Shown piece by piece: positions 7,885 through 41,798 of a stretch of DNA of 64,000 nt (position 1 is its first letter; each line of letters starts with the position of its first letter). The notes under the pieces were generated by a model that saw only the letters and a program-made list of their open reading frames with translations, was not told the origin of the DNA and searched no databases. The position numbers and the translations under genes are program-made. The DNA is from Plantactinospora endophytica (lineage in GTDB: Bacteria > Actinomycetota > Actinomycetes > Mycobacteriales > Micromonosporaceae), in assembly GCF_016862915.1 (NCBI RefSeq), contig NZ_BONW01000016.1:62001-126000 (forward strand), written 5' to 3'.

Positions 7885-7900
7885 TGCATACGGTATCCAG
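7885..7900 (+). promoter_or_regulatory. Oxalate-island operator A (fds operon)
   Basis: TGCATACGGTATCCAG is one of nine copies of the island motif TGCATACnGTATnCnG, containing the palindromic core ATACNGTAT. It lies between a candidate -35 (TTGCAT, 7884-7889) and -10 (TATGGT, 7908-7913; 18-bp spacer), where bound repressor would block RNA polymerase. Confidence 0.75.
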
Positions 7901-7950
7901 AGCGACGTATGGTGGAGGTCCAGTCGGCGTCGAGTGGAGGTGGGATCGCC

Positions 7951-8427
7951 GTGGCCAGTCCGGATCCCTCGGTGACGGATCGGGTGCGGGCGCTGGTCGC
8001 CGCGCACCGTGGTGACCGGGGTGCGCTCTTGCCCATCCTGCACCGGATCCAGGCCGAGTTCGGTTACGTCGACTCCGACGTCGTGCCGGTGCTGGCGACC
8101 GAGCTGAACATCTCCCGTGCCGACGTGCACGGCGTGGTCACCTTCTACACCGACTTCCGGGCCGAACCGGCCGGCCGGACGGTGGTCAAGCTCTGCCGGG
8201 CCGAAGCCTGCCAGTCGGTCGGCGCCGAACAGCTCGTCGCGTACGCCGAGCGGACCCTGGGGGTCAAGGTCGGGCAGACCACACCGGACGGTTCGGTGAC
8301 CCTGGAGCAGGTGTTCTGCCTGGGCAACTGCGCACTCGGCCCGGCCGGTCAGATCGACGAGCGGGTGCACGGGCGGCTCACCCCCGCCCGGTTGGACGCC
8401 CTGGTGACGAAGGCGGTGGACGCATGA
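7951..8427 (+). CDS. fdsG: NAD-dependent formate dehydrogenase gamma subunit (NuoE-like)
   Basis: The product is a thioredoxin-like [2Fe-2S] subunit. Cysteines in CRAEACQS and CLGNCALGP form the 2Fe-2S ligand set of NuoE/FdsG proteins. It passes electrons between the FdsB flavin subunit and the catalytic subunit of the soluble Mo-dependent formate dehydrogenase. I chose GTG 7951 because GGAGGTG sits about ten bases upstream. An in-frame ATG at 7909 has no ribosome site and falls inside the probable -10 box. This gives 158 residues, normal for the family. It is the first gene of the fdsGBAD operon and overlaps fdsB by ATGA. Confidence 0.88.
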   Translation: MASPDPSVTDRVRALVAAHRGDRGALLPILHRIQAEFGYVDSDVVPVLATELNISRADVHGVVTFYTDFRAEPAGRTVVKLCRAEACQSVGAEQLVAYAERTLGVKVGQTTPDGSVTLEQVFCLGNCALGPAGQIDERVHGRLTPARLDALVTKAVDA

Positions 8428-10007
8428 CGACGCCGGTGACGGTCTACGTACCCCGGGACTCGGCCGCGCTCTCGGTCGGCGCGGACCTGGTCGCCGCCGA
8501 GATCGAGCGGGCGGCGGCCGAGGCGGGCCGGTCGGTCCGGGTGGTCCGGAACGGCTCGCACGGCATGCTCTGGCTGGAACCGCTCGTCGAGGTGGTCACC
8601 GAGCGCGGCCGGATCGGGTACGGGCCGGTCGCGCCGGAGGAGGTCGGCGACCTCGTCGCCGCCGGGCTGCTCGACGGCGCCGACCACGAACTGTGCCAGG
8701 GCGTGGTGGCGGAACTGCCCTGGCTGCGCGACCAGACCCGGCTCTGCTTCGCCCGGGTCGGGATCACCGACCCGCTCTCCGCGGAGGACTACGTCGCGCA
8801 CGGCGGGTTGACCGGGCTGCGCCGGGCCCTGGAGCTGACCCCCGCCGAGGTGGTCGCCCAGGTCACCGAGTCCGGGCTGCGCGGCCGGGGCGGCGCCGGT
8901 TTCCCGGCCGGCATCAAGTGGAAGACCGTGCTGGACACCCCCGGCGAGCTGAAGTTCGTCTGCTGCAACGCCGACGAGGGCGACAGCGGCACCTTCGCCG
9001 ACCGGATGCTGATGGAGGGCGACCCGTTCACCCTCATCGAGGGCATGACCATCGCCGCGTACGCCGTCGGCGCCACCGAGGGCTACGTCTACATCCGCTC
9101 CGAATATCCGGACGCGGTCCGGACGATGCGCCAGGCCATCGCGGTGGCCCGCGAGCAGGGCTGGCTCGGCGGCGACATCCTCGGCTCCGGCCTGCGCTTC
9201 GACCTGTTCGTCCGGGTCGGCGCGGGCGCCTACATCTGCGGCGAGGAGACCGCGATGCTGGAGAGCCTGGAGGGCAAGCGCGGCATGGTCCGGGCCAAGC
9301 CGCCGATCCCGGCGATCACCGGCCTGTTCAACAAGCCGACCGTGGTGAACAACGTGCTGACCCTCGCCTCGGTGCCGACCATCCTGGCCGACGGGGCGGC
9401 GGCGTACCAGGCGCTCGGGATGGAGCGGTCCCGGGGCACCCAGGTGTTCCAACTGGCCGGCAACGTCGCCCGGGGCGGCATCTTCGAGACCGCGTTCGGG
9501 ATGACGCTCGGCGAGCTGATCCACACCTACGGCGGCGGCACCCGCACCGGCCGCCCGGTCCGCGCCGTCCAGGTCGGCGGGCCGCTCGGGGCGTACCTGC
9601 CGGCGAACGGCCTCGATCTGCCGATGGAGTACGAAGCCTTCGCCTCGGCTGGCGCGATGCTCGGCCACGGTGGCATCGTGGTCTTCGACGACACCGTCGA
9701 CATGGCGGCGATGGCGAGATTCGCGATGGAGTTCTGCGCCGAGGAGTCCTGCGGCAAGTGCACCCCGTGCCGGGTGGGCGCGGTCCGTGGCGTCGAGGTG
9801 ATCGACAAGATCACTGCCGGCCAGGACCCGGACGGCAACCTGGCCCTGCTGGGTGACCTGTGCGAGCTGATGACCGAGGGGTCGCTGTGCGCGATGGGCG
9901 GCCTGACACCGATGCCGGTACGCAGCGCACTGCTGCACTTCCCGGACGACTTCACCGCGCGGGGTAAGCCGTCCACCGGCCGATACGAGGAGGCCAAGAC
10001 ATCGTGA
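8424..10007 (+). CDS. fdsB: NAD-dependent formate dehydrogenase beta subunit (NuoF-like)
   Basis: The 527-residue diaphorase subunit carries FMN and hands formate-derived electrons to NAD+. It combines an N-terminal NuoE-like/thioredoxin-like segment (to about 110) with a NuoF core: the glycine-rich RGRGGAGFPAGIKWK, AGAYICGEETAMLESLEGKR, and the 4Fe-4S motif ESCGKCTPCRVG near residue 440. The start overlaps fdsG (ATGA). Its stop overlaps a GTG that opens a 27-codon bridging frame leading into fdsA. Confidence 0.93.
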   Translation: MTTPVTVYVPRDSAALSVGADLVAAEIERAAAEAGRSVRVVRNGSHGMLWLEPLVEVVTERGRIGYGPVAPEEVGDLVAAGLLDGADHELCQGVVAELPWLRDQTRLCFARVGITDPLSAEDYVAHGGLTGLRRALELTPAEVVAQVTESGLRGRGGAGFPAGIKWKTVLDTPGELKFVCCNADEGDSGTFADRMLMEGDPFTLIEGMTIAAYAVGATEGYVYIRSEYPDAVRTMRQAIAVAREQGWLGGDILGSGLRFDLFVRVGAGAYICGEETAMLESLEGKRGMVRAKPPIPAITGLFNKPTVVNNVLTLASVPTILADGAAAYQALGMERSRGTQVFQLAGNVARGGIFETAFGMTLGELIHTYGGGTRTGRPVRAVQVGGPLGAYLPANGLDLPMEYEAFASAGAMLGHGGIVVFDDTVDMAAMARFAMEFCAEESCGKCTPCRVGAVRGVEVIDKITAGQDPDGNLALLGDLCELMTEGSLCAMGGLTPMPVRSALLHFPDDFTARGKPSTGRYEEAKTS

Positions 10008-10087
10008 GCGAGCGTAGCGAGCGAACCAGCCAGTTCAGTGCCGATGTGTCTCATGGCGGCACGGAGCGCAGCGGAGTGGCGTCATGA
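10004..10087 (+). CDS. 27-codon bridging ORF inside an intergenic repeat between fdsB and fdsA
   Basis: GTG 10004 overlaps the fdsB stop (GTGA) and is preceded by a strong ribosome site, GAGGAGG at 9987-9993. The frame encodes 27 residues (start VSERSERTSQ) and ends in a TGA that overlaps the fdsA ATG (ATGA). The DNA contains a direct repeat AGCGAGCG-T-AGCGAGCG and a second GGAGCGCAGCGGAG element, resembling dispersed intergenic elements of Micromonosporaceae. I infer that its job, if any, is translational coupling; the peptide is unlikely to be a subunit. Confidence 0.55.
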   Translation: MSERSERTSQFSADVSHGGTERSGVAS

Positions 10088-12897
10088 GTCTGCTGAAGGA
10101 ACCCGACCTCGGCACCCCGGCCAAGCCCGGCCCGGCGACCGTCACCGTCGAAGTGGACGGACATCCCGTCGCCGTACCCGAGGGCACCTCGGTGATGCGG
10201 GCGGCGGCGCTGAGCGGCATCGACATCCCGAAACTCTGCGCCACCGACAGCCTGGAGGCGTTCGGCTCCTGCCGACTCTGCCTGGTGGAGATCGACGGCC
10301 GGCGCGGCACCCCGGCGTCCTGCACCACCCCGGTCACCCAGGGCATGAAGGTGACCACCCAGTCACCGAAGCTGGAGAAGCTCCGCCAGGGCGTGATGGA
10401 GCTGTACATCTCCGACCACCCGCTGGACTGCCTGACCTGCTCGGCCAACGGCGACTGCGAATTGCAGGACATGTCCGGTGTGGTCGGCCTGCGCCAGGTC
10501 CGGTACGGCTACGACGGCGAGAACCACCTCGACGAGAAGACCGACTCCAGCAACCCGTACTTCGACTTCGAGGCGTCGAAGTGCATCGCCTGCTCCCGCT
10601 GTGTCCGGGCCTGTGGTGAGGTGCAGGGGACGTTCGCGCTGACCATCGAGGGGCGCGGCTTCGGCTCCAAGGTGTCGGCCGGCGGCACCGACTTCATGTC
10701 CTCCGAGTGCGTCTCCTGCGGCGCCTGCGTGCAGGCGTGCCCGACGGCGACGTTGCAGGAGAAGTCGGTGGTGCAGCTCGGCATGCCGACCCGGAGCGTC
10801 GTCACCACCTGCGCGTACTGCGGCGTCGGCTGCTCCTTCAAGGCCGAGTTGCGCGGTGCCGAGCTGGTCCGGATGGTGCCGTACAAGGACGGCGGGGCCA
10901 ACGAGGGGCACTCCTGCGTCAAGGGCCGGTTCGCGTTCGGCTACGCCACCCACCCGGACCGGGTGCTCACCCCGATGGTCCGGGAGAGCATCACCGACGA
11001 GTGGCGCCCGGTCGACTGGGAGACCGCGATCTCCTACACGGCCAGCAAGCTCAAGGACATCCAGACCCGGCACGGGGTCGGGGCGATCGGCGGCATCACC
11101 TCCTCGCGTACCACGAACGAGGAGGTCTACGTGGTGCAGAAGATGATCCGAGCCGCGTTCGGCAACAACAACGTGGACACCTGCGCCCGGGTCTGCCACT
11201 CGCCGACCGGGTACGGCCTGAAGCAGACCTTTGGCACCTCCGCCGGTACCCAGGACTTCCGCTCGGTGGCGAAGTCCGACGTGATCATGGTGATCGGGGC
11301 GAACCCCACCGACGGGCACCCGGTCTTCGCCTCCCGGATGAAGCGCCGGCTGCGCGAGGGCGCCAAGCTGATCGTGGTCGACCCACGCCGGATCGACCTG
11401 GTCCGCTCGCCGCACATCGAGGCGGCCCACCACCTGCAACTCGCCCCCGGCACCAACGTGGCGGTGGTGAACGCGATGGCGCACGTGGTGCTGACCGAGG
11501 GACTGGTCGACCGGTCCTTCGTCGACGAGCGCTGCGAGGACTTCGACGCCTGGGCCGAGTTCATCGCCCGGCCGGAGAACAGCCCGGAGGCGGTCGAGGA
11601 ACTCACCGGCGTACCCGCCGAGGAACTGCGGGCGGCGGCCCGGCTCTACGCCACCGGCGGCAACGGCGCGATCTACTACGGTCTCGGCGTCACCGAGCAC
11701 AGCCAGGGCTCGACCATGGTGATGGGGATGGCCAACCTGGCGATGGCGACCGGCAACATCGGCCGGGACGGTGTCGGGGTCAACCCGTTGCGCGGGCAGA
11801 ACAACGTGCAGGGCTCCTGCGACATGGGCTCGTTCCCGCACGAGCTGCCCGGCTACCGGCACGTCTCCGACGACGTCGTACGCGGCGTCTTCGAGAACAT
11901 GTGGGGGAGCACCCTGCTGCCCGAGCCCGGGCTGCGGATCCCGAACATGTTCGACGCGGCGATCGAGGGCACCTTCCGGGCGATCTTCGTCCAGGGTGAG
12001 GACATCGCGCAGTCCGACCCGAACACCAAGCACGTACACGCCGCGCTGGCGGCGATGGAGCTGGTCGTGGTGCAGGACCTGTTCCTCAACGAGACGGCGA
12101 AGTTCGCGCACGTCTTCCTGCCCGGCACCTCCTTCCTGGAGAAGGACGGCACGTTCACCAACGCCGAGCGCCGGATCAACCGGGTACGCCCGGTGATGGC
12201 GCCGAAGACCGGCAAGCACGAGTGGGAGATCGTCGCCGAGATCGCCCAGGCGATGGGCTACCCGATGCGGTACGACCAGCCGAGCCAGATCATGGACGAG
12301 ATCGCGGCGCTCACCCCGACCTTCGCCGGGGTGTCGTTCGACAAGCTCGACAAGTTGGGCAGTGTGCAGTGGCCCTGCAACGACAACGCGCCCGAGGGCA
12401 CCCCGATCATGCACATGGACGGCTTCGTCCGAGGCAAGGGCCGGTTCGTGCAGACGCCGTTCGTGCCAACCCGGGAGCGGAGTACCCGCAAGTTCCCGCT
12501 GATCCTGACCACCGGCCGGATCCTCAGCCAGTACAACGTCGGGGCGCAGACCCGGCGGACCGGGAACGTGGCGTGGCACCCGGAGGACGTACTCGAAATT
12601 CATCCGCACGACGCGGAGGTCCGGGGCATCAACGACGGTGACGAGGTCACCCTGGCCAGCCGGGTCGGTGCCACCTCGCTGCGGGCGGTCTTCTCCGACC
12701 GGATGCCGGTCGGGGTGGTCTACACGACCTTCCACCACCCGGTGACCGGCGCGAACGTGGTCACCACGGAGAACTCCGACTGGGCGACGAACTGTCCGGA
12801 ATACAAGGTCACGGCAGTCCAGGTGGGGTTGAAGAATCCGCCGGCCACGGCGGACGTCGCCTCCTCGGAGCACCGACTGCCGGCGATGGCAGACTGA
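10084..12897 (+). CDS. fdsA: Molybdenum-dependent NAD formate dehydrogenase catalytic alpha subunit
   Basis: The 937-residue enzyme oxidises formate to CO2 in the cytoplasm. The N-terminus is NuoG-like: a [2Fe-2S] ferredoxin domain, a His/Cys 4Fe-4S segment (DCLTCSANGDCELQ), then two ferredoxin clusters (CIACSRCVRAC, CVSCGACVQAC). A further 4Fe-4S cluster (CAYCGVGCSFK...C) precedes the molybdopterin domain. The active site reads VCHSPTG, with Cys371 the expected Mo ligand and His372 next to it, so this is a cysteine rather than selenocysteine enzyme. The start ATG 10084 has GGAG seven bases upstream. FdhD, MoeA and the DUF6457 protein encoded nearby serve its cofactor. Confidence 0.95.
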   Translation: MSLLKEPDLGTPAKPGPATVTVEVDGHPVAVPEGTSVMRAAALSGIDIPKLCATDSLEAFGSCRLCLVEIDGRRGTPASCTTPVTQGMKVTTQSPKLEKLRQGVMELYISDHPLDCLTCSANGDCELQDMSGVVGLRQVRYGYDGENHLDEKTDSSNPYFDFEASKCIACSRCVRACGEVQGTFALTIEGRGFGSKVSAGGTDFMSSECVSCGACVQACPTATLQEKSVVQLGMPTRSVVTTCAYCGVGCSFKAELRGAELVRMVPYKDGGANEGHSCVKGRFAFGYATHPDRVLTPMVRESITDEWRPVDWETAISYTASKLKDIQTRHGVGAIGGITSSRTTNEEVYVVQKMIRAAFGNNNVDTCARVCHSPTGYGLKQTFGTSAGTQDFRSVAKSDVIMVIGANPTDGHPVFASRMKRRLREGAKLIVVDPRRIDLVRSPHIEAAHHLQLAPGTNVAVVNAMAHVVLTEGLVDRSFVDERCEDFDAWAEFIARPENSPEAVEELTGVPAEELRAAARLYATGGNGAIYYGLGVTEHSQGSTMVMGMANLAMATGNIGRDGVGVNPLRGQNNVQGSCDMGSFPHELPGYRHVSDDVVRGVFENMWGSTLLPEPGLRIPNMFDAAIEGTFRAIFVQGEDIAQSDPNTKHVHAALAAMELVVVQDLFLNETAKFAHVFLPGTSFLEKDGTFTNAERRINRVRPVMAPKTGKHEWEIVAEIAQAMGYPMRYDQPSQIMDEIAALTPTFAGVSFDKLDKLGSVQWPCNDNAPEGTPIMHMDGFVRGKGRFVQTPFVPTRERSTRKFPLILTTGRILSQYNVGAQTRRTGNVAWHPEDVLEIHPHDAEVRGINDGDEVTLASRVGATSLRAVFSDRMPVGVVYTTFHHPVTGANVVTTENSDWATNCPEYKVTAVQVGLKNPPATADVASSEHRLPAMAD

Positions 12898-14358: not shown

Positions 14359-14849
14359 GCCACCCCCGCGCCGGCAGCGACTGAAGTGGGCTACGGCCTT
14401 GAGGTTGAGGTTGAGGTCGGGAGACCGATCGCGCGAGGGTGGCGGTTGATCGTGTGATTCGCCGGTGCCCGGTCGGGGTAGTTGCCCGAGAGACTGTCGA
14501 GCTGCCCCGCTTGTGCGCCCACTGATCCCGGAGCCTTTCCGGGCCCCGATCTCCACCGATCGGTCGACCCCGACTACAGCCCACCAAGCGCCGTCCCGGC
14601 AACCCGGCGCTGCGTGCCCCGTTTGTGCACCCAGCTCGACAGTCCGCGCACCGGCTACTTCCCGCAGCCGTCGGGGCCGCTCATCCTGGTCGGCCGGGCC
14701 GCACACAAAGCGCTGCCGCTGGCGACGCCCCGCGTCCGGGTGTGGCCGATGAACACCCTGCGGCAGTCGACTGCGCCTTGACTCGCTTCCATACTGCATA
14801 CAGAATTCTGTAGGTAATAGCAGTGTCGCCGAGCCGCCAGGGAGGGCCT
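14359..14849. other. 491-bp stretch without a convincing gene
   Basis: It begins with TTGAGG repeated three times (14399-14416). A frame at about 14620-14781 has strongly GC-biased third positions but no start or ribosome site and could be a gene remnant. A -35-like TTGACT lies at 14778-14783 and operator B at 14795. Nothing else is recognisable. Confidence 0.5.
14795..14811 (+). promoter_or_regulatory. Oxalate-island operator B (hyi-glxR-glxK)
   Basis: TGCATACAGAATTCTGT contains the perfect 14-bp palindrome TACAGAATTCTGTA (14799-14812). It differs from the gcl operator at only two of 19 positions over the shared stretch. It lies 38 bp before the hyi start and just downstream of a TTGACT -35 candidate. 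Confidence 0.75.
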
Positions 14850-15725
14850 GTGCCCGGACACCAGCTCCGCTACGACGTGAACTGCTCGATCCTCTTCACC
14901 GAGCTGCCCCTGCTGGAGCGGCCGGCAGCGGCCAAGGCGGCCGGCTTCGACGCCGTCGAGTTCTGGTGGCCGTTCGCCGAGGCGGTGCCCCGGGCGTCCG
15001 AGGTGGAGGCGTTCCTCGCCGCCATCCACGACGCGGACGTGCAACTGGTGGGGCTCAACTTCTTCGCCGGAGACATGCCCGGCGGCGACCGGGGCGTGGT
15101 CTCCTGGCCGGCCCGGTCCGCCGAGTTCCGGGAGAACGTCGAGCTGGTCGCGATGATCGGCGCCGCCACCGGCTGCCGGTCGTTCAACGCCCTCTACGGC
15201 AACCGGATCGACGACGTGCACCCGACCACCCAGGAGGAGACCGCGGTGGCCAACCTGGCCTTCGCCGCCTCCGCGCTGGCCCGGATCGGCGGCACCGTAC
15301 TCGTCGAGGCGGTCAGCGGCCCCCAGCCCTACCCGCTGCGTACCGGCGCCGACGTCGTCGCCGTACTCGACCAACTGCTGGTCGAACGCGACGCCCGCAA
15401 CCTGGCCTTCCTCGCCGACCTCTATCACCTCACCGTCAACGGCGACGACGTGCCCAAGGTGCTCGCCGAACACGCCGACCGGATCGGGCACGTGCAGATC
15501 GCCGACGCCCCCGGCCGGCACGCCCCGGGCACCGGCGAGATCGACATCGACGGCCAGCTCAGCCAGCTCGAACAGCGCGGCTATCGAGGCTGGGTCGGCC
15601 TGGAGTACCTGCCCGACGGGCCGACCGAGGACAGCTTCGAATGGCTGCCCCGACACCGCCGGGGCAGCACCGAGGCCCGGACGAACGAGGGCGCCGCCGA
15701 CCGGACGAACGAAGGAGACCGCTGA
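14850..15725 (+). CDS. hyi: Hydroxypyruvate isomerase
   Basis: The TIM-barrel protein interconverts hydroxypyruvate and tartronate semialdehyde, linking Gcl output to the glycerate route. The opening YDVNCSILFTELPLLERPAAAKAAGFDAVEFWWPF matches Hyi proteins. LADLYHLTVNGDD and the VEA/GxVxxEY region carry metal-binding Glu/Asp/His of the family. I start at GTG 14850, next to GGAGG at 14841-14845; GTG 14823 has no ribosome site. It has 291 residues, the last ~20 a polar tail beyond the usual ~260. The gene is first in hyi-glxR-glxK. Confidence 0.85.
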   Translation: MPGHQLRYDVNCSILFTELPLLERPAAAKAAGFDAVEFWWPFAEAVPRASEVEAFLAAIHDADVQLVGLNFFAGDMPGGDRGVVSWPARSAEFRENVELVAMIGAATGCRSFNALYGNRIDDVHPTTQEETAVANLAFAASALARIGGTVLVEAVSGPQPYPLRTGADVVAVLDQLLVERDARNLAFLADLYHLTVNGDDVPKVLAEHADRIGHVQIADAPGRHAPGTGEIDIDGQLSQLEQRGYRGWVGLEYLPDGPTEDSFEWLPRHRRGSTEARTNEGAADRTNEGDR

Positions 15726-15726
15726 C

Positions 15727-16611
15727 ATGACCAGCATCGGGATGATCGGCCTCGGCATCATGGGCGGCCCGATGGCCGTCAACCTGATCAAGGCCGGCCA
15801 CGACGTCGTCGGGTACGACGTCAGTCCGGCCCGCAACGTCGCCCTCGAACAGGCCGGGGGCAAGGTCGCCGCCGGCATCGGCGAGCTGGTGCAACAGGTG
15901 GACGTGGTGATCACCATGGTCCGCGACTCGGCCGACGTCGAGGCGGTCGCCCTCGGCGACTCCGGCATCCTGGCCAACGCCCGCCCCGGCCAGCTCTACG
16001 TCGACATGAGCAGCATCTCGCCCGGTACCTCCCGCCAGGTCGCCGAGGCGGCCCGGATCCTCTCGGTCCGGGTACTCGACGCGCCGGTCAGCGGCGGTGA
16101 GGCCGGCGCGATCGAGGGCACCCTCTCCATCATGGTCGGCGGCGAGTCGGAGGACTTCGCGGCGGCACTGCCGATCCTGGAGGTGCTCGGCGGCACCGTC
16201 GTACACGTCGGCCCGGCCGGCGCCGGCCAGACCGTGAAGGCGGCCAACCAGCTCATCGTGGCCGGCACCATCGAACTGGTCGCCGAGGCGATCGTCTTCC
16301 TCGAAGCGTACGAGGTGGACACCGAGGCGGCGGTGAAGGTGCTGGCTGGCGGCCTGGCCGGCAACCGGATCCTGGACCGCAAGGCGGCCGGGATGCTGGC
16401 CCGGCAGTTCCAGCCCGGCTTCCGGATCGACCTGCACCACAAGGACATGGGCATCGTCACCTCGGCGGCCCGGGACGCCGGGGTGGTGATCCCGCTCGGC
16501 GCGGCGGTCGCCCAGCTCATCGCCGCGCTCAAGGCGCAGGGCGATGGCGGTCTCGACCACAGCGCCCTGCTCAAGCTGGTCGAGCAGCTCTCCGGCCGGT
16601 CGGCCGGCTGA
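15727..16611 (+). CDS. glxR: Tartronate semialdehyde reductase (2-hydroxy-3-oxopropionate reductase)
   Basis: The 294-residue protein of the beta-hydroxyacid dehydrogenase family has the N-terminal dinucleotide motif MIGLGIMGGPMAVNLIKAGH, the substrate loop APVSGGEAGAIEGTL and the catalytic-lysine segment GAGQTVKAANQLIV near residue 170. It reduces tartronate semialdehyde to D-glycerate with NAD(P)H. It starts one base after the hyi stop, so the two are cotranslated, and glycerate kinase follows. Close relatives act on 3-hydroxyisobutyrate, but the pathway context favours GlxR. Confidence 0.9.
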   Translation: MTSIGMIGLGIMGGPMAVNLIKAGHDVVGYDVSPARNVALEQAGGKVAAGIGELVQQVDVVITMVRDSADVEAVALGDSGILANARPGQLYVDMSSISPGTSRQVAEAARILSVRVLDAPVSGGEAGAIEGTLSIMVGGESEDFAAALPILEVLGGTVVHVGPAGAGQTVKAANQLIVAGTIELVAEAIVFLEAYEVDTEAAVKVLAGGLAGNRILDRKAAGMLARQFQPGFRIDLHHKDMGIVTSAARDAGVVIPLGAAVAQLIAALKAQGDGGLDHSALLKLVEQLSGRSAG

Positions 16612-16631
16612 CCGGCCGGGCCGTCGCGCGG

Positions 16632-20764: not shown

Positions 20765-20781
20765 AACATACAGTATACAGT
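20765..20781 (+). promoter_or_regulatory. Oxalate-island operator C (divergent OxlT-like gene / DUF6457-moeA)
   Basis: AACATACAGTATACAGT keeps the ATACAGTAT core with weaker left flank. It sits 19 bp before the transporter start and 116 bp before the DUF6457 start, so one site can control both directions. Confidence 0.65.
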
Positions 20782-24411: not shown

Positions 24412-24416
24412 GGCTG

Positions 24417-29497: not shown

Positions 29498-29664
29498 CCG
29501 GACGGTCGCCGAGCGATGCACGACAGTTCCACCCGACCAGGCAGTTGGAGGGGCCACTAGCCACACGGCGACCCGCTCCGCGGCCAAGGGTCAACGGACA
29601 CAAGCGTCGGAACCGGCCCGTCCTCCGGCTCCGTACGACGTCACAGTCCCCCAGGAGGTCCAGC

Positions 29665-31221: not shown

Positions 31222-31241
31222 GCCGGACGGAAGGAGTTGTC

Positions 31242-31271
31242 ATGACGAAGCGGGATGAGGTAACGCCGTGA
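31242..31271 (+). CDS. 9-codon leader ORF coupled to the next gene
   Basis: ATG 31242 has AAGGAG at 31231-31236. The frame encodes MTKRDEVTP and its TGA overlaps the GTG start at 31268 (GTGA). The next gene has only a weak ribosome site of its own, so this leader probably delivers ribosomes to it. Confidence 0.5.
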   Translation: MTKRDEVTP

Positions 31272-33085: not shown

Positions 33086-33570
33086 GACAACATCACTCCT
33101 GCTTGTCGGTCTTCCCGGGAAACGACGCTTCCCGGGACCGTGCGCACCGGACCGGACGAGAGAAGACCGTCCGGGCCGGTGGTCCGGCAGGACACCCGGG
33201 ATGTGCCTGGTGGGGCCGGGCACACCCCGGGTCGCCGGATCTTCGCCGTCACGCCTCGTCGCGTGGCGGCCGGATCTATGTCTGTCGCCGCATCGACGAC
33301 CGGCGGGGGTCGGCCCGCAGCGGCCGCGCGGAGCCGTGGCCTCGTGGCCCGGACCGCGGTGTGAACGGTACGCAGGCGGTTCCTCTGTGGAGCTACCCGG
33401 TGCCGTGCCACCACAAACCCTCGCGCTCGTCCCGTCCGGCGACAGGTCCTTGTTCGACGGTCCCAGGATACCGCCTTCGGTATACAAAAAACCGAACCAG
33501 TGACCAAAGCCACCGTGCCGCCGACCCGAGCCGTGACCACCGGTTCGGCGCCGGTACGCGCCGGCCTGCC

Positions 33571-33648
33571 CGGAAAACGTCCCTGCTACCCCCTAGACAC
33601 CCCGCTGTTACGTGGTCCACGATTATTGCCTACCCCATACGGTATGCA
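33571..33648 (+). repeat. Duplicated promoter block, copy 2 (before oxc)
   Basis: This is a 78-bp near-copy of 25799-25875, with one extra T before ATTGCCTACC. It brings the same operator to oxc that copy 1 brings to frc. Confidence 0.85.
33633..33648 (-). promoter_or_regulatory. Oxalate-island operator E (oxc)
   Basis: On the minus strand it reads TGCATACCGTATGGGG, identical over 16 bp to operator D. It lies 155 bp before the oxc start. Confidence 0.75.
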
Positions 33649-33803: not shown

Positions 33804-35537
33804 ATGACCATCGCTTCCCTCCGGGAGTCAGAAGCTGGCGATCTCGTGGGTGCGAAGAAGCTCACCGACGGGATCCATCTGGTCGTCGACGCGCTCAAGC
33901 TCAACGAGGTCGACGCCATCTACGGCGTCGTCGGCATCCCGATCACCGACCTGGCCCGGCTGGCGCAGTCGTCCGGCATCCGCTTCATCGGCTTCCGGCA
34001 CGAGAGCGCTGCCGGGCACGCGGCGGCGGCGGCCGGGTTCCTGACCAAGAAGCCGGGAATCTGCCTGACGGTCTCCGCCCCGGGATTCCTCAACGGGCTG
34101 GTGGCACTGGCCAACGCCACGGTGAACTGCTTCCCGATGGTGCAGATCTCCGGATCCAGCGAGCGGCACCTCGTCGACCTCCAGCGGGGCGACTACGAGG
34201 AGATGGACCAGCTCGCGGCGGCCCGACAGTTCGCCAAGGCGGCATACCGGGTGCACCGGGCGGAGGACATCGGTCGGGGCGTGGCCCGCGCGATCCGTAC
34301 CGCCGTGTCCGGGCGACCCGGAGGGGTCTACCTCGACATCCCGGCGGCGGTTCTCGGCGAGGTCATCGACGCGGAGGCGGGCGCGGCGTCACTGTGGCGG
34401 CTCGTCGACCCGGCGCCGCGACAGGTGCCCGAACCCGCGGCCCTGGACCGGGCGATCGAACTGCTCGCGAACGCCCAGCGGCCGCTCGTCGTACTCGGCA
34501 AGGGCGCCGCGTACGCGCAGGCGGACGACCAGATCCGCCGGTTCGTCGAACTCACCGGCGTGCCCTACCTGCCCATGTCGATGGCGAAGGGCCTGCTGCC
34601 CGACGACCACCCGCAGTCGGTGGCCAGCACCAGGTCGCTGGCCCTACGCCGGGCCGACGTCGTGATGCTCGTCGGTGCGCGCCTGAACTGGCTGCTCGGA
34701 CACGGCGACGCACCACAGTGGAACTCCGACGCGAAGTTCATCCAGGTGGACATCGCCAGCACCGAGCTGGACAGCAACCAGCCCATCGCGGCGCCGCTCG
34801 TCGGTGACGTCGGCTCGGTGATGCAGGCGCTGATCGACCGGACCGAACCGGGCCAGATCACCGTCCCGAGCCAGTGGCGGGACGAGCTGTCGGCCCGCTC
34901 CGCGGAGAACGTCGGCAAGATGGCCAAGCGGCTCAAGGCCGCCGAGACCGCACACCCGATGAAGTTCCTGGGCGCGCTCCAGGCCGTCCGCGACGTCCTG
35001 CGGGAGAACCCGCGCGCCTATGTCGTCAACGAGGGCGCGAACGCGCTGGACCTGGCCCGCAACACGATCGGCATGCAGGTGCCACGACACCGCCTGGACA
35101 GCGGCACCTGGGGCGTGATGGGCATCGGCATGGGGTACGCGATCGCCGCCGCGGTCGAGAGCGGGGACCCGGTCGTCGCCATCGAGGGCGACAGTGCGTT
35201 CGGGTTCAGCGGCATGGAGATCGAGACCATCTGCCGCTACAACCTGCCCGTCGTCACGGTCGTGCTGAACAACAGCGGCGTCTACCGAGGCGACGACGCG
35301 TCACCGTCCGGGGACCCGGCACCGACCGCCCTCCGGGCCCGGCACGATCTCATGATCGCCGCCTTCGGCGGCAAGGGCTATCGGGCGACGACGCCCGAGG
35401 AGGTCACCGCCGCCCTGCGCGAGGCCCTGGCGGCGGGCCGGCCCGCGCTCATCGACTGCGTCATCGACCCCACCGACGGGACGGAGAGCGGCAACATCGC
35501 CCACCTCAACCCCAAGGGCATCACCGTGCAGCGGTGA
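33804..35537 (+). CDS. oxc: Oxalyl-CoA decarboxylase
   Basis: The 577-residue thiamine-diphosphate enzyme converts oxalyl-CoA to formyl-CoA and CO2. Glu67 in RHESAAGHAAAAAGF is the conserved TPP-activating glutamate. The TPP/Mg motif is GDSAFGFSGMEIETICRYNLP through NNSGVY near 462-495. SAPGFLNGLVALANATVNCFPMVQISG is Oxc-like, and the length matches Oxalobacter Oxc (568). ATG 33804 has GGAGG nine bases upstream. The gene stands alone between promoter block copy 2 and two terminator hairpins. Confidence 0.92.
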   Translation: MTIASLRESEAGDLVGAKKLTDGIHLVVDALKLNEVDAIYGVVGIPITDLARLAQSSGIRFIGFRHESAAGHAAAAAGFLTKKPGICLTVSAPGFLNGLVALANATVNCFPMVQISGSSERHLVDLQRGDYEEMDQLAAARQFAKAAYRVHRAEDIGRGVARAIRTAVSGRPGGVYLDIPAAVLGEVIDAEAGAASLWRLVDPAPRQVPEPAALDRAIELLANAQRPLVVLGKGAAYAQADDQIRRFVELTGVPYLPMSMAKGLLPDDHPQSVASTRSLALRRADVVMLVGARLNWLLGHGDAPQWNSDAKFIQVDIASTELDSNQPIAAPLVGDVGSVMQALIDRTEPGQITVPSQWRDELSARSAENVGKMAKRLKAAETAHPMKFLGALQAVRDVLRENPRAYVVNEGANALDLARNTIGMQVPRHRLDSGTWGVMGIGMGYAIAAAVESGDPVVAIEGDSAFGFSGMEIETICRYNLPVVTVVLNNSGVYRGDDASPSGDPAPTALRARHDLMIAAFGGKGYRATTPEEVTAALREALAAGRPALIDCVIDPTDGTESGNIAHLNPKGITVQR

Positions 35538-35844: not shown

Positions 35845-35860
35845 CTGTAGACGGCATGCA
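35845..35860 (-). promoter_or_regulatory. Oxalate-island operator J (aldehyde dehydrogenase), degenerate
   Basis: On the minus strand it reads TGCATGCCGTCTACAG, two mismatches to the specified bases of TGCATACnGTATnCnG. It lies 57 bp before the gene, a spacing like that of the gntR and fds operators. Confidence 0.5.
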
Positions 35861-35917: not shown

Positions 35918-37279
35918 ATGTACACAGTTACCGACCCAGCGACAGGCGAGCTGATCGAGAAGATCGAGAACGCGACCGACGCGGAGGTCCGGGAAGCGAT
36001 CGATCGCGTCCACCGCGGGTACGTGTCGTGGCGGCGCCGGACGGTCGCCGAGCGGGCCGAGATCGTGTCCCGTGCGGCGGACCTGTTCGCCGAGCGCGCC
36101 GACGAGCTGGCGGCGATCATGACGCTGGAGATGGGCAAGCGGATCAACGAGGGCCGTGGCGAGGTCGGCGTGGTCGTCGACATCTTTAGGTACTACGCCG
36201 ACAACGGTCCTGCGCTGCTGGCCGACGAGCCGATGGAGATCAGGGGCGGCAGGGCCGTCATCACCAAGAACCCCATCGGGGCGCTGCTCGGCGTCATGCC
36301 GTGGAACTTCCCCTGCTACCAGATCGCCCGGTTCGTGGCGCCGAACCTGGTCCTCGGCAACACGATCCTGCTGAAGCATGCCTCGATCTGTCCCCGGTCG
36401 GCGGCGGCGATCGAGCGGATCCTGCACGACGCCGGGGTGCCCGAGGACGCGTACGTGAACATCTTCGCGTCCAGCGCGCAGGTCCCCGGGATGCTCGCGG
36501 ATCCCCGCATCCAGGGAGTCTCGCTGACCGGCAGCGAGCGGGCGGGCATCTCGGTCGCCGCCGAGGCCGGGAAGAACCTGAAGCGGGTCGTCCTGGAACT
36601 GGGCGGTTCCGACCCGCTGATCCTGCTGGACACCGACGACATGGACAAGACCGTCAAGGCCACCGCGACCGCCCGGATGCGCAACTGCGGCCAGTCGTGC
36701 AACTCGCCGAAGCGGATGATCGTGCTCGCCGACATCTACGAGGAGTTCGTCGACCGGCTGACCAAGCACGTGGCCGAGACCTTCGTGCCGGGCGACCCGA
36801 GCGATCCCGCGACGAAGCTGCCACCGCTGGCGTCGGTCGCGGCGGCCGAGGAGGTGGCCGGTCAGGTCGAGAAGGCGGTCCAGCAGGGCGCGACGCTACG
36901 CACCGGTGGGCATCGCATCGACCGGCCCGGCGCCTATCTCGAGGCCACGGTGCTGACCGACGTGACCCCCGAGATGGACGCCTACTACGAGGAGATCTTC
37001 GGCCCTGTGGTGCTGGTGTTCCGGGCGGAGACCGAGGAGGAGGCGGTCGCCATCGCGAACGATTCGCCGTTCGGGCTCGGCGCCAGCGTGTGGGGTACCG
37101 ATCCGGACCGGTTGCGCCGGGTTGCCGGGCAGATCGAGTCCGGCATGGTGTACCTGAACAGCGCCGGTGGATCCCAGGCCGACCTGCCCTTCGGCGGCAT
37201 CAAGCGCTCCGGGATGGGCAGGGAACTCGGCCCGGCCGGCATCGAGGAGTTCATGAACAAGAAATCCATCCGCCTGTAG
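35918..37279 (+). CDS. Aldehyde dehydrogenase, succinate-semialdehyde dehydrogenase-like
   Basis: The 453-residue NAD(P)-dependent dehydrogenase has the general-base Glu in LELGGSDPLIL, the nucleophile Cys in NCGQSCNSPKR and the C-terminal EIFGPVVLVFRAETEEEAVAIANDSPFGLGASVW. Size and sequence fit the short GabD1-type group. With operator J upstream and its position beside oxc and the regulator, the natural aldehyde may be glyoxylate, tartronate semialdehyde or glycolaldehyde rather than succinate semialdehyde (inference). The start is ATG 35918; no ribosome site stands out. Confidence 0.85.
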   Translation: MYTVTDPATGELIEKIENATDAEVREAIDRVHRGYVSWRRRTVAERAEIVSRAADLFAERADELAAIMTLEMGKRINEGRGEVGVVVDIFRYYADNGPALLADEPMEIRGGRAVITKNPIGALLGVMPWNFPCYQIARFVAPNLVLGNTILLKHASICPRSAAAIERILHDAGVPEDAYVNIFASSAQVPGMLADPRIQGVSLTGSERAGISVAAEAGKNLKRVVLELGGSDPLILLDTDDMDKTVKATATARMRNCGQSCNSPKRMIVLADIYEEFVDRLTKHVAETFVPGDPSDPATKLPPLASVAAAEEVAGQVEKAVQQGATLRTGGHRIDRPGAYLEATVLTDVTPEMDAYYEEIFGPVVLVFRAETEEEAVAIANDSPFGLGASVWGTDPDRLRRVAGQIESGMVYLNSAGGSQADLPFGGIKRSGMGRELGPAGIEEFMNKKSIRL

Positions 37280-37651: not shown

Positions 37652-38413
37652 TCAGCCCAGGGCTTCCCGTTCAGCGGCCTCCTTGCGGCGCTGGTGGTAG
37701 CTCTCCCGGGTGCGCTCGGTGTGCCGGCGCATCATCTCGCCGGCCCGTCGCCCGTTCCGGCCGGCGATCACCTCGATCAGCTCGGCGTGCTCGTCCCAGG
37801 CCTCCCGGCCCCGGGAACGGGCGATGGGGGCGTAGTACCAGCGCACCCGCCGGTCGACCATGGCGATCAGTTCGGCGAGGACCTTGTTGCCGGACATCTC
37901 GACGACGTACGCGTGCAGGGCGGCGTTCGCGGCGACGAGTTCGACCTGGTCGTCGTCGCGCAGTGCCTTCTCGCCGGCCTCCTGTAGCTCGCGCAGCCGC
38001 TCGACCTGCTCCGGCGTGGCCTGCCGGGCCGCCAGTCGGGCCGACTCCGACTCCAGCAGCGTGCGGGTGGCGAGGAGCTGGTCCGCCTCCTCCTCGGTCG
38101 GCACGTGCACGAACGCGCCGAGCGCGGGGCGCAGGTCGACCCAGCCCTCGCTCTGCAACCGTTGCAGGGCCTCCCGGACCGGCTGCCGGCTGACGCCGAG
38201 CTGGGCAGCGAGTTCGTTCTCCACCAGGTGCTCGCCGGGGCGCAGCTCGCGGTTGATGATCATTTCCGCGATCACGTCGTAGACCGCCTGCCGCAGTGGC
38301 GCGGGGCGCTCCAGAGGCTGCCGTGCGGCCCGTGGCTCGCGGCGGGCCGCGGTGAGCCGTCGTCGACCACCATTGGCGCCGCCTGGTGAGGCCGAGCCCC
38401 CCCATTCGGTCAT
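37652..38413 (-). CDS. GntR/FadR-family regulator with FCD domain; candidate master regulator of the island
   Basis: The 253-residue protein has a winged helix (about 40-105; AVYDVIAEMIINRELRPGEHLVENELAAQLGVSRQPVREALQRLQSEGWV) and an FCD ligand domain (about 115-240). Three FCD histidines (LHAYVV, WDEHAELI, RRHTERT) probably bind a metal that holds a carboxylate ligand. The N-terminal 35 residues are a basic, disordered-looking tail. Operator H lies 57 bp upstream, suggesting autoregulation. It is the only GntR protein inside the oxalate island, and FCD regulators bind palindromes like TGCATACnGTATnCnG. The inducer may be oxalate, oxalyl-CoA or glyoxylate (inference). Confidence 0.88.
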   Translation of the reverse strand: MTEWGGSASPGGANGGRRRLTAARREPRAARQPLERPAPLRQAVYDVIAEMIINRELRPGEHLVENELAAQLGVSRQPVREALQRLQSEGWVDLRPALGAFVHVPTEEEADQLLATRTLLESESARLAARQATPEQVERLRELQEAGEKALRDDDQVELVAANAALHAYVVEMSGNKVLAELIAMVDRRVRWYYAPIARSRGREAWDEHAELIEVIAGRNGRRAGEMMRRHTERTRESYHQRRKEAAEREALG

Positions 38414-38470
38414 GGACTACCTCCGGCTGCGAGAAATCGATCGGGCGCTCGCGCCCTTTTCTGGGCTATA

Positions 38471-38492
38471 GCATACAGTCGTCTAGATGCAA
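38471..38492 (+). promoter_or_regulatory. Oxalate-island operator H and promoter of gntR
   Basis: AGCATACAGTCGTCTA fits the motif imperfectly; the far half-site ATGCAAT recurs beside it. On the minus strand, a -35 TTGCAT and a -10 TATAGC with a 16-bp spacer enclose the site, so binding would repress the regulator's own gene. Confidence 0.6.
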
Positions 38493-38659: not shown

Positions 38660-40384
38660 TCACCCCGAAACCGCGTCCTTGTACTCGATCTCCGGCACCG
38701 GCTCGAACTCGTTGACCTTGGCGATGGAGAGCCCGTGCGCGGTGTTCGCCTCCCGTTCGATCATCACCTCGACCAGTACCGGACGGCTGGTCCGGCGGGC
38801 CTCCTTGCTGGCCCAGGCGAGCGCGTCGGCGATCTCGTCCGGCCGCAGCACCCGCCGGCCGGCGCAGCCGTACGCCTCCATCACCTTGACATTGTCGGTG
38901 CCGTACTCGTCGTAGTGGATGTCCACCTCGTAGTTCATCTCGTAGCCGATCTCGGCCTGCCGGATCAGCCCGAGATACTCGTTGTTCAACATGATCAACA
39001 CAAACGGGATGTTGTACTGCGCGGCCACCGCGAGTTCCTCGACCAGGAACTGGAACGAGTAGTCGCCGACCACGCCCACCACCTCGGCGTCGGGTTTGGC
39101 GGACTTCACCCCGATCGCCGCCGGAATCTCCCAGCCGAGCGGGCCGGCCTGGCCGCAGACCTGGTAGTGCCGGGGCTTGAAGACCTTCTGGAACTGCCCG
39201 GACCAAATCTGGTAGAGACCGATCGCGGTCACGAAGTAGGTGTCCGGGCCGAAGAACTCGTTGATCTCCTTGAACACCCGGGGCGCCTTGACCGGTACCG
39301 CGTCGAAGTCGTCCCGGCGGCGCAGCGTCTCGCGGAGCTTGCGGACCAGCGACACCCACTCACCACGGTCCCGCGCGACGCCCCGGCGGCGGGCGGCGTC
39401 GAGCAGTGCCGCGAGGAACGCCCCGGTGTCCGAGACCACCCCGAGGTCGGGGCCGAACACCTTGCCGAGCTGGGTCGGCTCGATGTCGACGTGGATGAAC
39501 TTCCGGTCGCCCCGGTAGGTCTCCAGGTCGCCGGTGTGCCGGTCGCCGAACCGGGCGCCGAGCGCGAGCACCAGGTCGGACTCCAGGAAGGACGCGTTGC
39601 CGAAGCGTTGGGTGGTCTGGATGCCGGTCATCCCGGCGAACAGGTCGTGGTCCTCCGGGATCGCGCCCTTGCCCATCAGGGTGACCTGGACCGGGATGTT
39701 CAACGTCTCGGCTACCTCGCGGAGCAGGTCGCTGGCCTCGCCGATGATGACGCCGCCGCCGGCCAGGATCAGCGGCCGTTCGGCGGCCAGCAGCATGTCC
39801 AGGGCCCGCTCGACCCGGGGCAGGTGCGGCTCGACCCGGGGCACCGGCAGCGGGGCGTCGATCGAGGCGTCCCACTCGATCTCCTGCCGCTGCACGTCGA
39901 CCGGCAGGTCGATCAGCACCGGGCCGGGCCGCCCGGAGCGGGCGATCCGGAACGCCTCCCGGAAGATCCACGGCGCCTGGGCCGCCTCCTTGACCTGCAC
40001 CGCCCACTTCGTCACCGGCTTGGCGATCTCGACGATGTCGACCGCCTGGAACGCCTCCTGGTGCAGCTTGTTCGTCGGTGCCTGGCCGGTGATGCAGACC
40101 ATCGGGATGGAGTCGGCCTGGGCGGTGTACAAGCCGGTGATCATGTTGGTGCCGGCCGGGCCGGAGGTGCCGATCGCGACTCCGACCCGGCCGTTGGTCC
40201 GGGCCCAGCCGTCGGCCATGTGGGTGGCACCCTCCTCGTGCCGGACGATCAGGTGCCGGATGTCGCTGCGCCGCAGCGACGCGTAGAGCGGCAGGATCGC
40301 CGCGCCGGGACAGCCGAACGCGATGTCCACGCCCTCCGACGCGAGCACCGAGACGACCGCGTCCATGCAGGGAATCTTGGCCAT
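38660..40384 (-). CDS. gcl: Glyoxylate carboligase (tartronate-semialdehyde synthase)
   Basis: The 574-residue thiamine-diphosphate enzyme joins two glyoxylates to tartronate semialdehyde and CO2. Similarity to E. coli Gcl is clear throughout: AFGCPGAAILPLYASLR, GTSGPAGTNMITGLY, FQAVDIVEIAKPVTKWAVQV, CGQAGPLGWEIPAAIGV, and the TPP motif GDYSFQFLVEELAVAAQYNIPF. Oddly, E. coli Gcl is known for Val51 in place of the usual TPP-activating Glu. Here the aligned residue is Glu50 (RHEEGATHMADG). It may still be a carboligase; an acetolactate-synthase-like activity is the alternative. A 30-residue ORF ends four bases upstream. Confidence 0.87.
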   Translation of the reverse strand: MAKIPCMDAVVSVLASEGVDIAFGCPGAAILPLYASLRRSDIRHLIVRHEEGATHMADGWARTNGRVGVAIGTSGPAGTNMITGLYTAQADSIPMVCITGQAPTNKLHQEAFQAVDIVEIAKPVTKWAVQVKEAAQAPWIFREAFRIARSGRPGPVLIDLPVDVQRQEIEWDASIDAPLPVPRVEPHLPRVERALDMLLAAERPLILAGGGVIIGEASDLLREVAETLNIPVQVTLMGKGAIPEDHDLFAGMTGIQTTQRFGNASFLESDLVLALGARFGDRHTGDLETYRGDRKFIHVDIEPTQLGKVFGPDLGVVSDTGAFLAALLDAARRRGVARDRGEWVSLVRKLRETLRRRDDFDAVPVKAPRVFKEINEFFGPDTYFVTAIGLYQIWSGQFQKVFKPRHYQVCGQAGPLGWEIPAAIGVKSAKPDAEVVGVVGDYSFQFLVEELAVAAQYNIPFVLIMLNNEYLGLIRQAEIGYEMNYEVDIHYDEYGTDNVKVMEAYGCAGRRVLRPDEIADALAWASKEARRTSRPVLVEVMIEREANTAHGLSIAKVNEFEPVPEIEYKDAVSG

Positions 40385-40617: not shown

Positions 40618-40634
40618 TGCATACAGTATTCTGT
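40618..40634 (+). promoter_or_regulatory. Oxalate-island operator F (gcl)
   Basis: TGCATACAGTATTCTGT matches the consensus at every specified position and is nearly the same as operator B. It lies 136 bp before the microprotein start and 233 bp before gcl. Confidence 0.75.
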
Positions 40635-40700
40635 CGGCAGTCCCAGTGCAATACCTCTCGCGACGCCTCGCCGGTACGCCGGTAGCGGTCGGCCGGCCGG

Positions 40701-41702
40701 TCAGGCCGCCGCCACGCTCGGGGTCGGCGCCGGCCTGGCCATGGTCTTGGCCAGCAGTTCGGTCGCGGCGTAGATGGTGCGCAGGGTCGGTGCCGGCGCC
40801 CCGGTGATGTCGGCCATCTCCACCACGGCGGCGACGACGGCGTCGAGTTCCATCTCCTTGCCCGCCTCGAGGTCCTGCAACATCGAGGTCTTGTGGTGGC
40901 CGACCCGCCGGGCGCCCTCGACCCGCTTGCCGATCGAGATCTCCGGCGTGCTGCCGACCCGGCCGGCGATGTCTAGGGTCTCCGCCATCATCTGCTCGAC
41001 CACCCGGCGGGTGCCCGGGCTCTCGCAGATCTCCGCCATGGTCGCCCTGGTCAGGGCGCTTATCGGATTGAGCGAAGCGTTACCCATCAACTTGATCCAG
41101 ATGTCGTCCCGCAGTCGCGGCTCGACCGGACACTTCAGACCGCCGGCCACCATCGCCGCGCTGAACCGCAGGCACCGGTCCGATACCGTGCCGTCCGGCT
41201 CGCCGATGGAGAACCGGGTTCCCTCCAGATGCCGGATCACCCCGGGTGACTCGATCACCGTGGCCGGGTAGACCACGCAACCGATCGCCCGCTCCGGTGC
41301 CATCACCGCCGAGGTTGCCCCGCCAGGGTCGACGGCCTCGATCCGGTGACCCTCGTACGGCCCCGCGAGCTTGTGGAAGTACCACCACGGGATGCCGTTC
41401 TGCCCCGCGATGAGGGCGGTCTCCGGGCCGAGCAGCGGTTCGAGCAGCGGCCCGGCCGAGGCGTAGGAATGCGCCTTGAGGCCGAGGAACACGTAGTCCA
41501 CCGGACCGACCTCGGTCGGGTCGTCGGTGGCGTGCGGGTGCGCGGCGAAATCGCCCCGGGGACTGAGCACCCGTACCCCGTTCGCCCGCAGCGCGGCCAG
41601 GTGTGCGCCACGGGCGATCAGATGGACTTCCACCCCGGCCCGGCACAGGGACGCACCGACGTACGCGCCGATGGCGCCGGCTCCGAGCACAGCAACTCGC
41701 AC
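40701..41702 (-). CDS. PanE/ApbA-family reductase; candidate oxalyl-CoA reductase
   Basis: The 333-residue protein of the ketopantoate-reductase family starts at GTG 41702 behind GGGAG. It has the dinucleotide motif AVLGAGAIGAYVG, the HLIARG segment that distinguishes NADP, and the C-terminal-domain lysine region DDIWIKLMGNASLNPISALTRATM. Methylobacterium extorquens uses a PanE2 protein of this family as oxalyl-CoA reductase, producing glyoxylate. Here the gene has its own island operator (G) and lies beside gcl, which consumes glyoxylate. I therefore prefer oxalyl-CoA reduction over pantothenate synthesis (inference from context). A frame extending upstream to 42287 belongs to no gene. Confidence 0.78.
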   Translation of the reverse strand: MRVAVLGAGAIGAYVGASLCRAGVEVHLIARGAHLAALRANGVRVLSPRGDFAAHPHATDDPTEVGPVDYVFLGLKAHSYASAGPLLEPLLGPETALIAGQNGIPWWYFHKLAGPYEGHRIEAVDPGGATSAVMAPERAIGCVVYPATVIESPGVIRHLEGTRFSIGEPDGTVSDRCLRFSAAMVAGGLKCPVEPRLRDDIWIKLMGNASLNPISALTRATMAEICESPGTRRVVEQMMAETLDIAGRVGSTPEISIGKRVEGARRVGHHKTSMLQDLEAGKEMELDAVVAAVVEMADITGAPAPTLRTIYAATELLAKTMARPAPTPSVAAA

Positions 41703-41768
41703 GGGCTGCTCCCTTCTCGTACGACGTCCGCGCGGCGTCGAGGCGACGCAGCAGCGGCGTGCCCTCCC

Positions 41769-41798
41769 GTATGCGTTATGCTGACTACAGTATGCAAT
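41769..41798 (-). promoter_or_regulatory. Oxalate-island operator G (panE-like), with extra half-sites
   Basis: On the minus strand 41796-41781 reads TGCATACTGTAGTCAG, a good match to the motif. Two more half-sites (GTATGCG and TTATGC on the plus strand, 41769-41781) follow, giving three TATGC elements in 30 bp. It lies 67-96 bp before the gene. Confidence 0.7.

Follow-up and report, generated by a model that had tools for sequence, protein, structure and literature searches.

A mirror-image DNA switch, apparently the binding site of a neighbouring GntR repressor, precedes most oxalate, formate and glyoxylate genes in Plantactinospora endophytica and many relatives

The DNA analysed here, which we call the window, is a stretch of 64,000 nucleotides corresponding to bases 62001–126000 of contig 16 in the 9.68-Mb genome of Plantactinospora endophytica. 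Between 7.8 and 42.3 kb it holds an island of genes for the use of oxalate, formate and glyoxylate, most of which are preceded, here and in many relatives, by a mirror-image DNA switch that is apparently the binding site of a neighbouring repressor, a GntR protein with an FCD domain. An earlier note, made from the letters of this DNA alone, had proposed that one 16-bp operator marks a nine-unit regulon under this protein. For the present analysis the island genes were called by codon use and their proteins scanned against Pfam and NCBIfam.

On the forward strand, fdsG, fdsB and fdsA (7909–12897) encode an NAD-linked formate dehydrogenase, with FdsG (NF004638, 209.6 bits) and FdsA (TIGR01591, 912 bits) over their family cut-offs and FdsB below that of the nuoF family (447 against 559). 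They are followed on the same strand by hyi, glxR and glxK (14850–17813), for a hydroxypyruvate isomerase-like protein (TIGR03234, 265 bits, below 353), a tartronate semialdehyde reductase (TIGR01505, 359, over) and a glycerate kinase (TIGR00045, 364, over). A moeA-like molybdenum cofactor gene lies on the reverse strand at 19144–20430 (Pfam MoeA_N 115.3 bits, MoCF_biosynth 78.0); beyond it, both forward, come an OxlT-like transporter of the major facilitator superfamily (20801–22174; MFS_1, 109.7 bits), for which we infer oxalate as substrate from its place, and fdhD for formate dehydrogenase maturation (22329–23147; FdhD-NarQ, 246.5 bits). The genes of a sucCD-like succinyl-coenzyme A (CoA) ligase (23536–25595, reverse; SucC NF001913, 503 bits over 370; SucD with CoA_binding and Ligase_CoA domains) are divergent from frc, encoding formyl-CoA transferase (25990–27219, forward; TIGR03253, 661 bits over 504). 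Downstream of frc, at 27347–32868 on the forward strand, are genes for an ADP-forming acyl-CoA synthetase-like protein (TIGR02717, 470 bits, below 567), an Nramp protein (NF037982, 460, over), a 192-residue protein and TerC (169.7 bits). Oxalyl-CoA decarboxylase is encoded by oxc (33804–35537, forward; TIGR03254, 986.9 bits over 739.4), whose active-site Glu, Tyr-Glu, Tyr and Ser are all present by alignment to the residue list in the available text of PMC10192776. The rest of the island comprises an aldehyde dehydrogenase gene (35918–37279, forward; NF006915, 490 bits, below 730), gntR (37652–38413, reverse), gcl for glyoxylate carboligase (38660–40384, reverse; NF008431, 923 bits over 791) and a panE-like reductase gene (40701–41690, reverse; NF005089, 457.6 bits over 223). 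The last is probably an oxalyl-CoA reductase, judging from its place and by analogy with PanE2 of Methylobacterium, which reduces oxalyl-CoA.

The shared site proposed earlier is real and its length is not: the operator is best written as a 15-bp inverted repeat, TGCATAC-N-GTATGCA. Scores given here are those of a strand-symmetric matrix built from the nine sites of the earlier note. The fds operator lies at 7885–7899 (forward; 22.7), and hyi–glxR–glxK has an array of three registers 7 bp apart at 14788–14816 (forward; centres 14795, 14802 and 14809, scoring 19.4, 22.6 and 17.3). The operator of the OxlT-like gene, which is divergent from duf6457/moeA, spans 20765–20786 (forward; 23.3, second register 13.2), that between sucCD and frc 25861–25875 (reverse; 19.6) and that of oxc 33634–33648 (reverse; 16.7). 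A possible, weak second oxc operator is centred on 33479 (33471–33487, no strand assigned), some 160 bp farther up than the main one; it scores 14.4 in each of the six Plantactinospora islands read. The aldehyde dehydrogenase site is at 35846–35860 (reverse; 16.2), the gcl operator at 40618–40639 (forward; 25.7, second register 14.3) and the panE operator at 41768–41796 (reverse; centres 41789 and 41775, scoring 23.1 and 12.8). The extra registers are at 14795 and 14809 for hyi, 20779 for oxlT, 40632 for gcl and 41775 for panE.

Eight of the nine listed sites are where the earlier note had placed them, with 0–2 mismatches to TGCATACNGTATNCNG. The ninth, before gntR, is present but starts one base earlier than listed (38470–38484, forward; centre 38477). 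Its sequence is degenerate, one half being strong and the other weak, and it scores 12.4 with the first matrix and 17.5 with a re-registered matrix that includes the site itself. In leave-one-out scoring the other eight rank 1–10 in the window and the gntR site, in the register first proposed, ranks 33123. Among the nine units, that of the aldehyde dehydrogenase is the weakest.

The logo drawn from 223 distinct sites reads (A)nATTGCATACNGTATGC(A), an inverted repeat about one base in which one half is strong and the other weaker, an asymmetry that is inflated because each site was oriented by its better half. This shape bears on the idea that the AT-rich repeat is no operator but belongs to promoters read by an alternative sigma factor, for which one could cite the TANNNT-like string in its core (TACAGT) and its occurrence in control regions. 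We regard that as very improbable: an inverted repeat about one base is no two-box promoter, some sites lie at or over the start codon, and no sigma factor was recognised among the scanned island proteins.

Because the palindrome partly matches itself at a 7-bp shift, the second register was tested against scrambled flanks. A register scoring at least 12 is found 7 bp off in 58 of the 162 sites that score at least 18, where 200 scrambled-flank trials gave 12 on average and 19 at most. Roughly one strong site in three is doubled, a pattern that suggests the binding of two dimers to such an operator. Five of the six Plantactinospora have all three hyi registers, namely the window and the genomes labelled G001, G003, G004 and G005, and G006 has two. 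A pure direct-repeat (heptad) operator was also considered against the scrambled flanks and set aside: although about one site in three has a genuine extra register, the inverted repeat is what the sites have in common.

At up to three mismatches the window holds 26 matches to TGCATACNGTATNCNG (both strands, overlapping registers counted) where 4.86 are expected, and none of 100 shuffles reaches 26. Eleven matches in the island score at least 16 with the matrix and none does in the rest of the window; at a threshold of 18 the counts are seven for the island, zero for the rest of the window and zero for 800 kb of stretches from the same genome. All 11 lie in noncoding DNA, which makes up about 20% of the island, and 200 column-permuted palindromic matrices gave on average 0.06 and at most 2 matches. 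The matrix scan covered the 800 kb of stretches, and the pattern searches covered the whole genome: the six matches to TGCATACNGTATNCNG at up to one mismatch are all in the island, and the 29 rows outside it at two mismatches are close to the 24 that a reversed-pattern control yields. The earlier note had named random genome-wide scattering of the motif through coding DNA as what would count against a regulon, and the close motif is not scattered.

Several observations weigh the other way. Three matches in the 800 kb outside the island reach 16, a background that was partly picked for weak pattern matches and whose count is therefore if anything too high. One of the 16 matches scoring at least 12 falls inside gcl, at 39185, and one two-mismatch pattern match falls inside oxc, at 34240. 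Furthermore, the matrix was made from the nine sites themselves, so that the window count alone is circular; the independent test is provided by the relatives, which are yet related to each other.

The proposed comparison with related actinomycetes shows sites before the same genes, as predicted. All five other Plantactinospora that carry the island have sites scoring at least 12 before fdsG, hyi, oxlT, frc/sucC and oxc, the fdsG site scoring at least 18 in the six islands read and the oxc sites 16.7–19.6 in the five. A site lies directly before gcl in three of the five (not in G004, and in G006 the nearest is 1.7 kb above gcl), before gntR in four (not in G004) and before panE in four; the fifth stretch, that of G006, ends short of panE, with a two-mismatch match beyond it at 633045. 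Least conserved is the aldehyde dehydrogenase site, which among five Plantactinospora carriers reaches 12 in the window and G005 (22.2) only. Islands were read for 16 of the 17 genomes that have a gntR orthologue (own included; for the other, G027, 12 kb at a contig edge), and operators precede frc, sucC, oxlT, panE, hyi or glxR in other genera of the family (G016, G053, G072, G030 and G012) and in two other families (G084, G097 and G106; G076 and G103). In G016, G053 and G072 the 23-bp stretch around the frc/sucCD operator is unchanged at frc and at the substitute for oxc discussed below.

A broader sample was gathered with the regulator alone as query, not the motif: 80 named loci, the best 80 of at least 568 confirmed GntR relatives and mutually related, which include Micromonosporaceae, Pseudonocardiaceae, Mycobacteriaceae, Streptomycetaceae, Nocardioidaceae, Thermomonosporaceae, Nocardiopsidaceae and Glycomycetaceae. 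They contain 218 matches scoring at least 16 (overlapping registers counted separately), with a match in 78 of the 80 loci, while 50 column-permuted palindromic matrices averaged 4.0 matches and never exceeded 29. That one of the permuted controls reached 29, and that loci L103 and L129 have no match at 16, has to be set against this result.

We can now judge whether the sites are chance AT-rich palindromes chosen by eye. They were indeed first picked by eye, and those of gntR and the aldehyde dehydrogenase are weak, but the shuffles, the confinement within the genome, the permuted matrices and the linkage across 121 genomes (see below) are all contrary, and conservation across the 80 loci already refutes the idea, to which we give virtually no weight.

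The link between motif and regulator was followed in 121 genomes, 17 of which (own included) have a gntR orthologue of at least 58% identity, the 16 others at 58–97%. Of the 25 exact occurrences of TTGCATACNGTATG in these genomes, 24 are no more than 15 kb from a gntR orthologue; these fall in 15 of the 17 orthologue genomes, with none in G030 and G027. All 16 genomes with frc of at least 80% identity have the gntR orthologue. A further Plantactinospora, G002, is without the gntR orthologue, oxc and frc and has no TTGCATACNGTATG match at up to one mismatch; likewise, no site scoring at least 12 was found upstream of oxc in G104, G112 and G120, which have oxc and lack this gntR (G096, with about 80 bases of contig above oxc, is not usable as a control). 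Near gntR itself, 71 sites scoring at least 16 lie at −30 to 300 bp from its start, some of them common to divergent panE. The proposal that the GntR protein encoded at 37652–38413 controls the island including its own gene is supported by the non-scatter of the motif, its conservation and this phyletic linkage, with binding by the protein itself a prediction.

It is conceivable that the motif is instead bound by another regulator and that gntR is a mere neighbour. The 25th exact TTGCATACNGTATG stands in G055 beside an FCD GntR of 40% identity, and a perfect TGCATACGGTATGCA beside that GntR makes cross-binding by paralogues possible; P. endophytica has GntR paralogues of 37% identity, and binding by the island's own GntR is predicted from sequence. 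However, the exact motif tracks the gntR orthologue across the 121 genomes, it precedes gntR itself in many loci, and no other regulator was recognised among the scanned island proteins (the 361-residue protein at 17889–18974 and the 192-residue protein at 31268–31846 have no family match). We therefore hold this explanation to be improbable. Two observations count against the regulon reading: TTGCATACNGTATG at one mismatch is scattered over 49 of the 121 genomes, and in G055 and G048 other FCD GntRs apparently use the same operator class. The loose TGCATACNGTATGCA at two mismatches is found in at least 85 of the 121 genomes and poorly separates those with the regulator from those without, a separation that exact TTGCATACNGTATG does achieve. 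Near-perfect operators lie beside FCD GntRs of 35–40% identity at centre 10171 of L082 (G055) and centre 9808 of L084 (G048), and because of such copies the operator class is wider than the oxalate regulon. A separate observation concerns G054, in which eight identical one-mismatch copies, TTGCCTACGGTATG, occur on contigs C5, C11, C16, C17, C19, C20, C23 and C27, two of them 10 bases from the contig start; these appear to belong to a repeated element and not to be operators.

The regulator has an N-terminal winged helix (GntR, PF00392, 73.1 bits, cut-off 27) and a C-terminal FCD domain (PF07729, 93.3 bits, cut-off 24.3), which makes it an FCD GntR protein, and its AlphaFold model (predicted local distance difference test, pLDDT, 83.7) is helical and near FCD regulator structures. 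None of the matched NCBIfam families is over its cut-off: the protein reaches 92.3 of 260 bits for NanR (NF003011) and 108.7 of 271.5 for PhnR (TIGR03338), and so belongs to neither. His167, His209 and His231, in a pocket placed by motif, are invariant in the 14 orthologues aligned of the 17, as is Asn163 at the position of the usual Asp. A small carboxylate such as oxalate would be a plausible ligand. The Asn in place of the usual metal-ligand Asp is a point against the regulon reading.

NanR, the repressor of the Escherichia coli sialic acid regulon, is likewise an FCD GntR serving several operons with one operator; the three His of its metal pocket may have counterparts here in His167, His209 and His231. 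The zinc ligands of NanR are D172, H176, H222 and H244, and its repeats let dimers bind side by side, three dimers on (GGTATA)3, according to the available text of PMC8012715. The doubled and tripled registers are broadly similar to this, but the geometry differs here, the operator being an inverted repeat with an optional 7-bp register and not three GGTATA repeats, and Asp172 of NanR is apparently Asn163. PmiR, VanR Atu1419, TM0439 and DhdR share the fold (best Foldseek E values 3.5e-11, 9.1e-11, 8.4e-10 and 1.1e-8, respectively) at 22–29% identity to the GntR studied here; VanR and DhdR have structure entries with DNA, that of VanR palindromic, by their entry titles. These four proteins act in other pathways.

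Taken together, the motif, its statistics, its conservation, its confinement to the island and its linkage to gntR make it highly probable that the island is one regulon, in which the FCD-type GntR would bind and repress and oxalate or a product would induce. Specifically, a GntR dimer would bind TGCATAC-N-GTATGCA before fds, hyi–glxR–glxK, oxlT (perhaps moeA), frc, sucCD, oxc, gcl, panE and its own gene, repressing them, until oxalate or a product of it (oxalyl-CoA or glyoxylate) bound the histidine-lined pocket of the FCD domain, released the protein from DNA and turned the route on. Oxalate would then enter through the OxlT-like transporter and receive CoA by the action of frc, with sucCD and the acyl-CoA synthetase-like protein, and oxc would decarboxylate oxalyl-CoA to formyl-CoA. 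FdsGBA, with FdhD and MoeA, would convert formate to CO2 and NADH, while the panE-like reductase would turn oxalyl-CoA into glyoxylate, to be passed through gcl, hyi, glxR and glxK to glycerate.

The positions of the operators bear on the sign of this control. Median distances from operator centre to start codon are 29 bp for oxlT, 33 for fdsG, 47 for hyi and 52 for panE, and centres lie within 70 bp of the start in 21 of 23, 16 of 17, 11 of 12 and 41 of 53 cases, respectively, a closeness that favours repression. For sucC, frc and gcl the sites are farther up (medians of 110, 119 and 250 bp, with starts extrapolated from alignments), which weighs against plain repression throughout and leaves room for activation at some promoters. 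The GntR might then be an activator or a dual regulator, as some members of the wider GntR family do activate. We consider this unlikely, given that many centres are no more than 70 bp away from a start codon, like roadblock sites, and that related structures are titled repressors (VanR Atu1419).

Beyond Plantactinospora the decarboxylase of the regulon appears to be exchanged. Ten genomes of other genera and families combine the regulator with frc and lack oxc. Each of them carries in the island a thiamine diphosphate (ThDP) protein, of 566–589 residues in the five examined, and in all ten an operator lies within about 350 bp upstream of it, several being common to divergent sucC. The 16 genomes with a GntR orthologue and a close frc divide into six with oxc and ten with the substitute, none having both and none neither; the 80 named loci, covered to at most about 10 kb on each side, divide into 20 with oxc, 39 with the substitute, none with both and 21 with neither within reach. 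The idea that the regulon in other genera does without any decarboxylase was rejected when the substitute was found.

The substitute occupies the oxc slot under the same operator at L060:1151–2878 (G016), as well as in L065, L074 and L076, and its copies in the 39 loci share 78–92% identity with the G016 protein. Compared with oxc or with gcl, the identity is about 29% in either case. Three members score 220–251 bits for TIGR03254, whose cut-off is 739.4 and which places them outside oxalyl-CoA decarboxylase, and each is below the cut-offs of the 25 NCBIfam models listed for it. The G016 protein reaches 498 bits for PRK05858, an acetolactate synthase-like family of likewise ThDP enzymes (below 587), and 355 for 2-hydroxyacyl-CoA lyase (below 600); its best match in the Protein Data Bank is 7pt3, likewise a 2-hydroxyacyl-CoA lyase. 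In four aligned substitutes the ThDP Glu is kept, and the Tyr-Glu pair and the Tyr of oxalyl-CoA decarboxylases are not. The substitute is not a member of the known oxc family, with the same reaction possible, and its slot makes it a candidate for a second oxalyl-CoA decarboxylase. In a GntR tree that was quickly built (95 rows, 74 labelled), the oxc and substitute states change four times by parsimony and at least twice by well-supported branches, which suggests more than one exchange; transfer of the whole cluster is also possible. We lean slightly toward the wider reading that an ancient FCD GntR and a TGCATACNGTATGCA operator, often doubled at 7 bp, define an oxalate regulon across many actinomycete families, in which oxc is exchanged for an unrecognised ThDP enzyme, either an oxalyl-CoA decarboxylase or a lyase that forms formyl-CoA and fills the same role.

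Some neighbouring genes are of separate interest. In the window, frc and the acyl-CoA synthetase-like gene are succeeded at 29788–32868 by genes for an Nramp metal transporter, the 192-residue protein and TerC. Of the 80 named loci, 15 have nramp and 13 have terC; a possible role is to handle metal freed from metal oxalates. The 361-residue protein predicted at 17889–18974 has no Pfam or NCBIfam match, and no counterpart was found in related islands at the cut-offs used. At 5534–6493, beside the fds end, is a protein with MEDS sensory and histidine-kinase-like ATPase domains, found near the island in G001 and G004 too. In G030, the gene directly before frc (L065:4105–4683) encodes a carbonic anhydrase-like protein (NF011765, 94.6 bits, below 221).

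The same enzymes are encoded in other bacteria by oxalate loci that hold oxc, frc and oxlT, and oxc and frc here are over their family cut-offs. The earlier note knew of no described regulon with this site, and none was found in the literature searched, a search that subscription papers largely escaped; the available main text of two surveys of oxalate genes (PMC12927642, PMC10192776) does not mention GntR. As a kind, a local regulon of an FCD GntR is ordinary; as a case, this one is undescribed in the literature searched, and it leads to the prediction of an enzyme.

Actinomycetes thereby gain an oxalate regulon whose operator is defined and for whose regulator there is a candidate. The operator indicates which loci are switched together, adding formate dehydrogenase, molybdenum helpers and metal transporters to the set. 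One survey tracks oxalate use by oxc, frc, oxdC and oxlT, according to its available text (PMC10192776), and the operator leads to an enzyme that an oxc-based survey would miss. If the substitute is indeed a decarboxylase of this route, many actinomycetes scored as lacking oxc would be oxalate users, and oxalate use by soil bacteria feeds the oxalate–carbonate carbon pathway.

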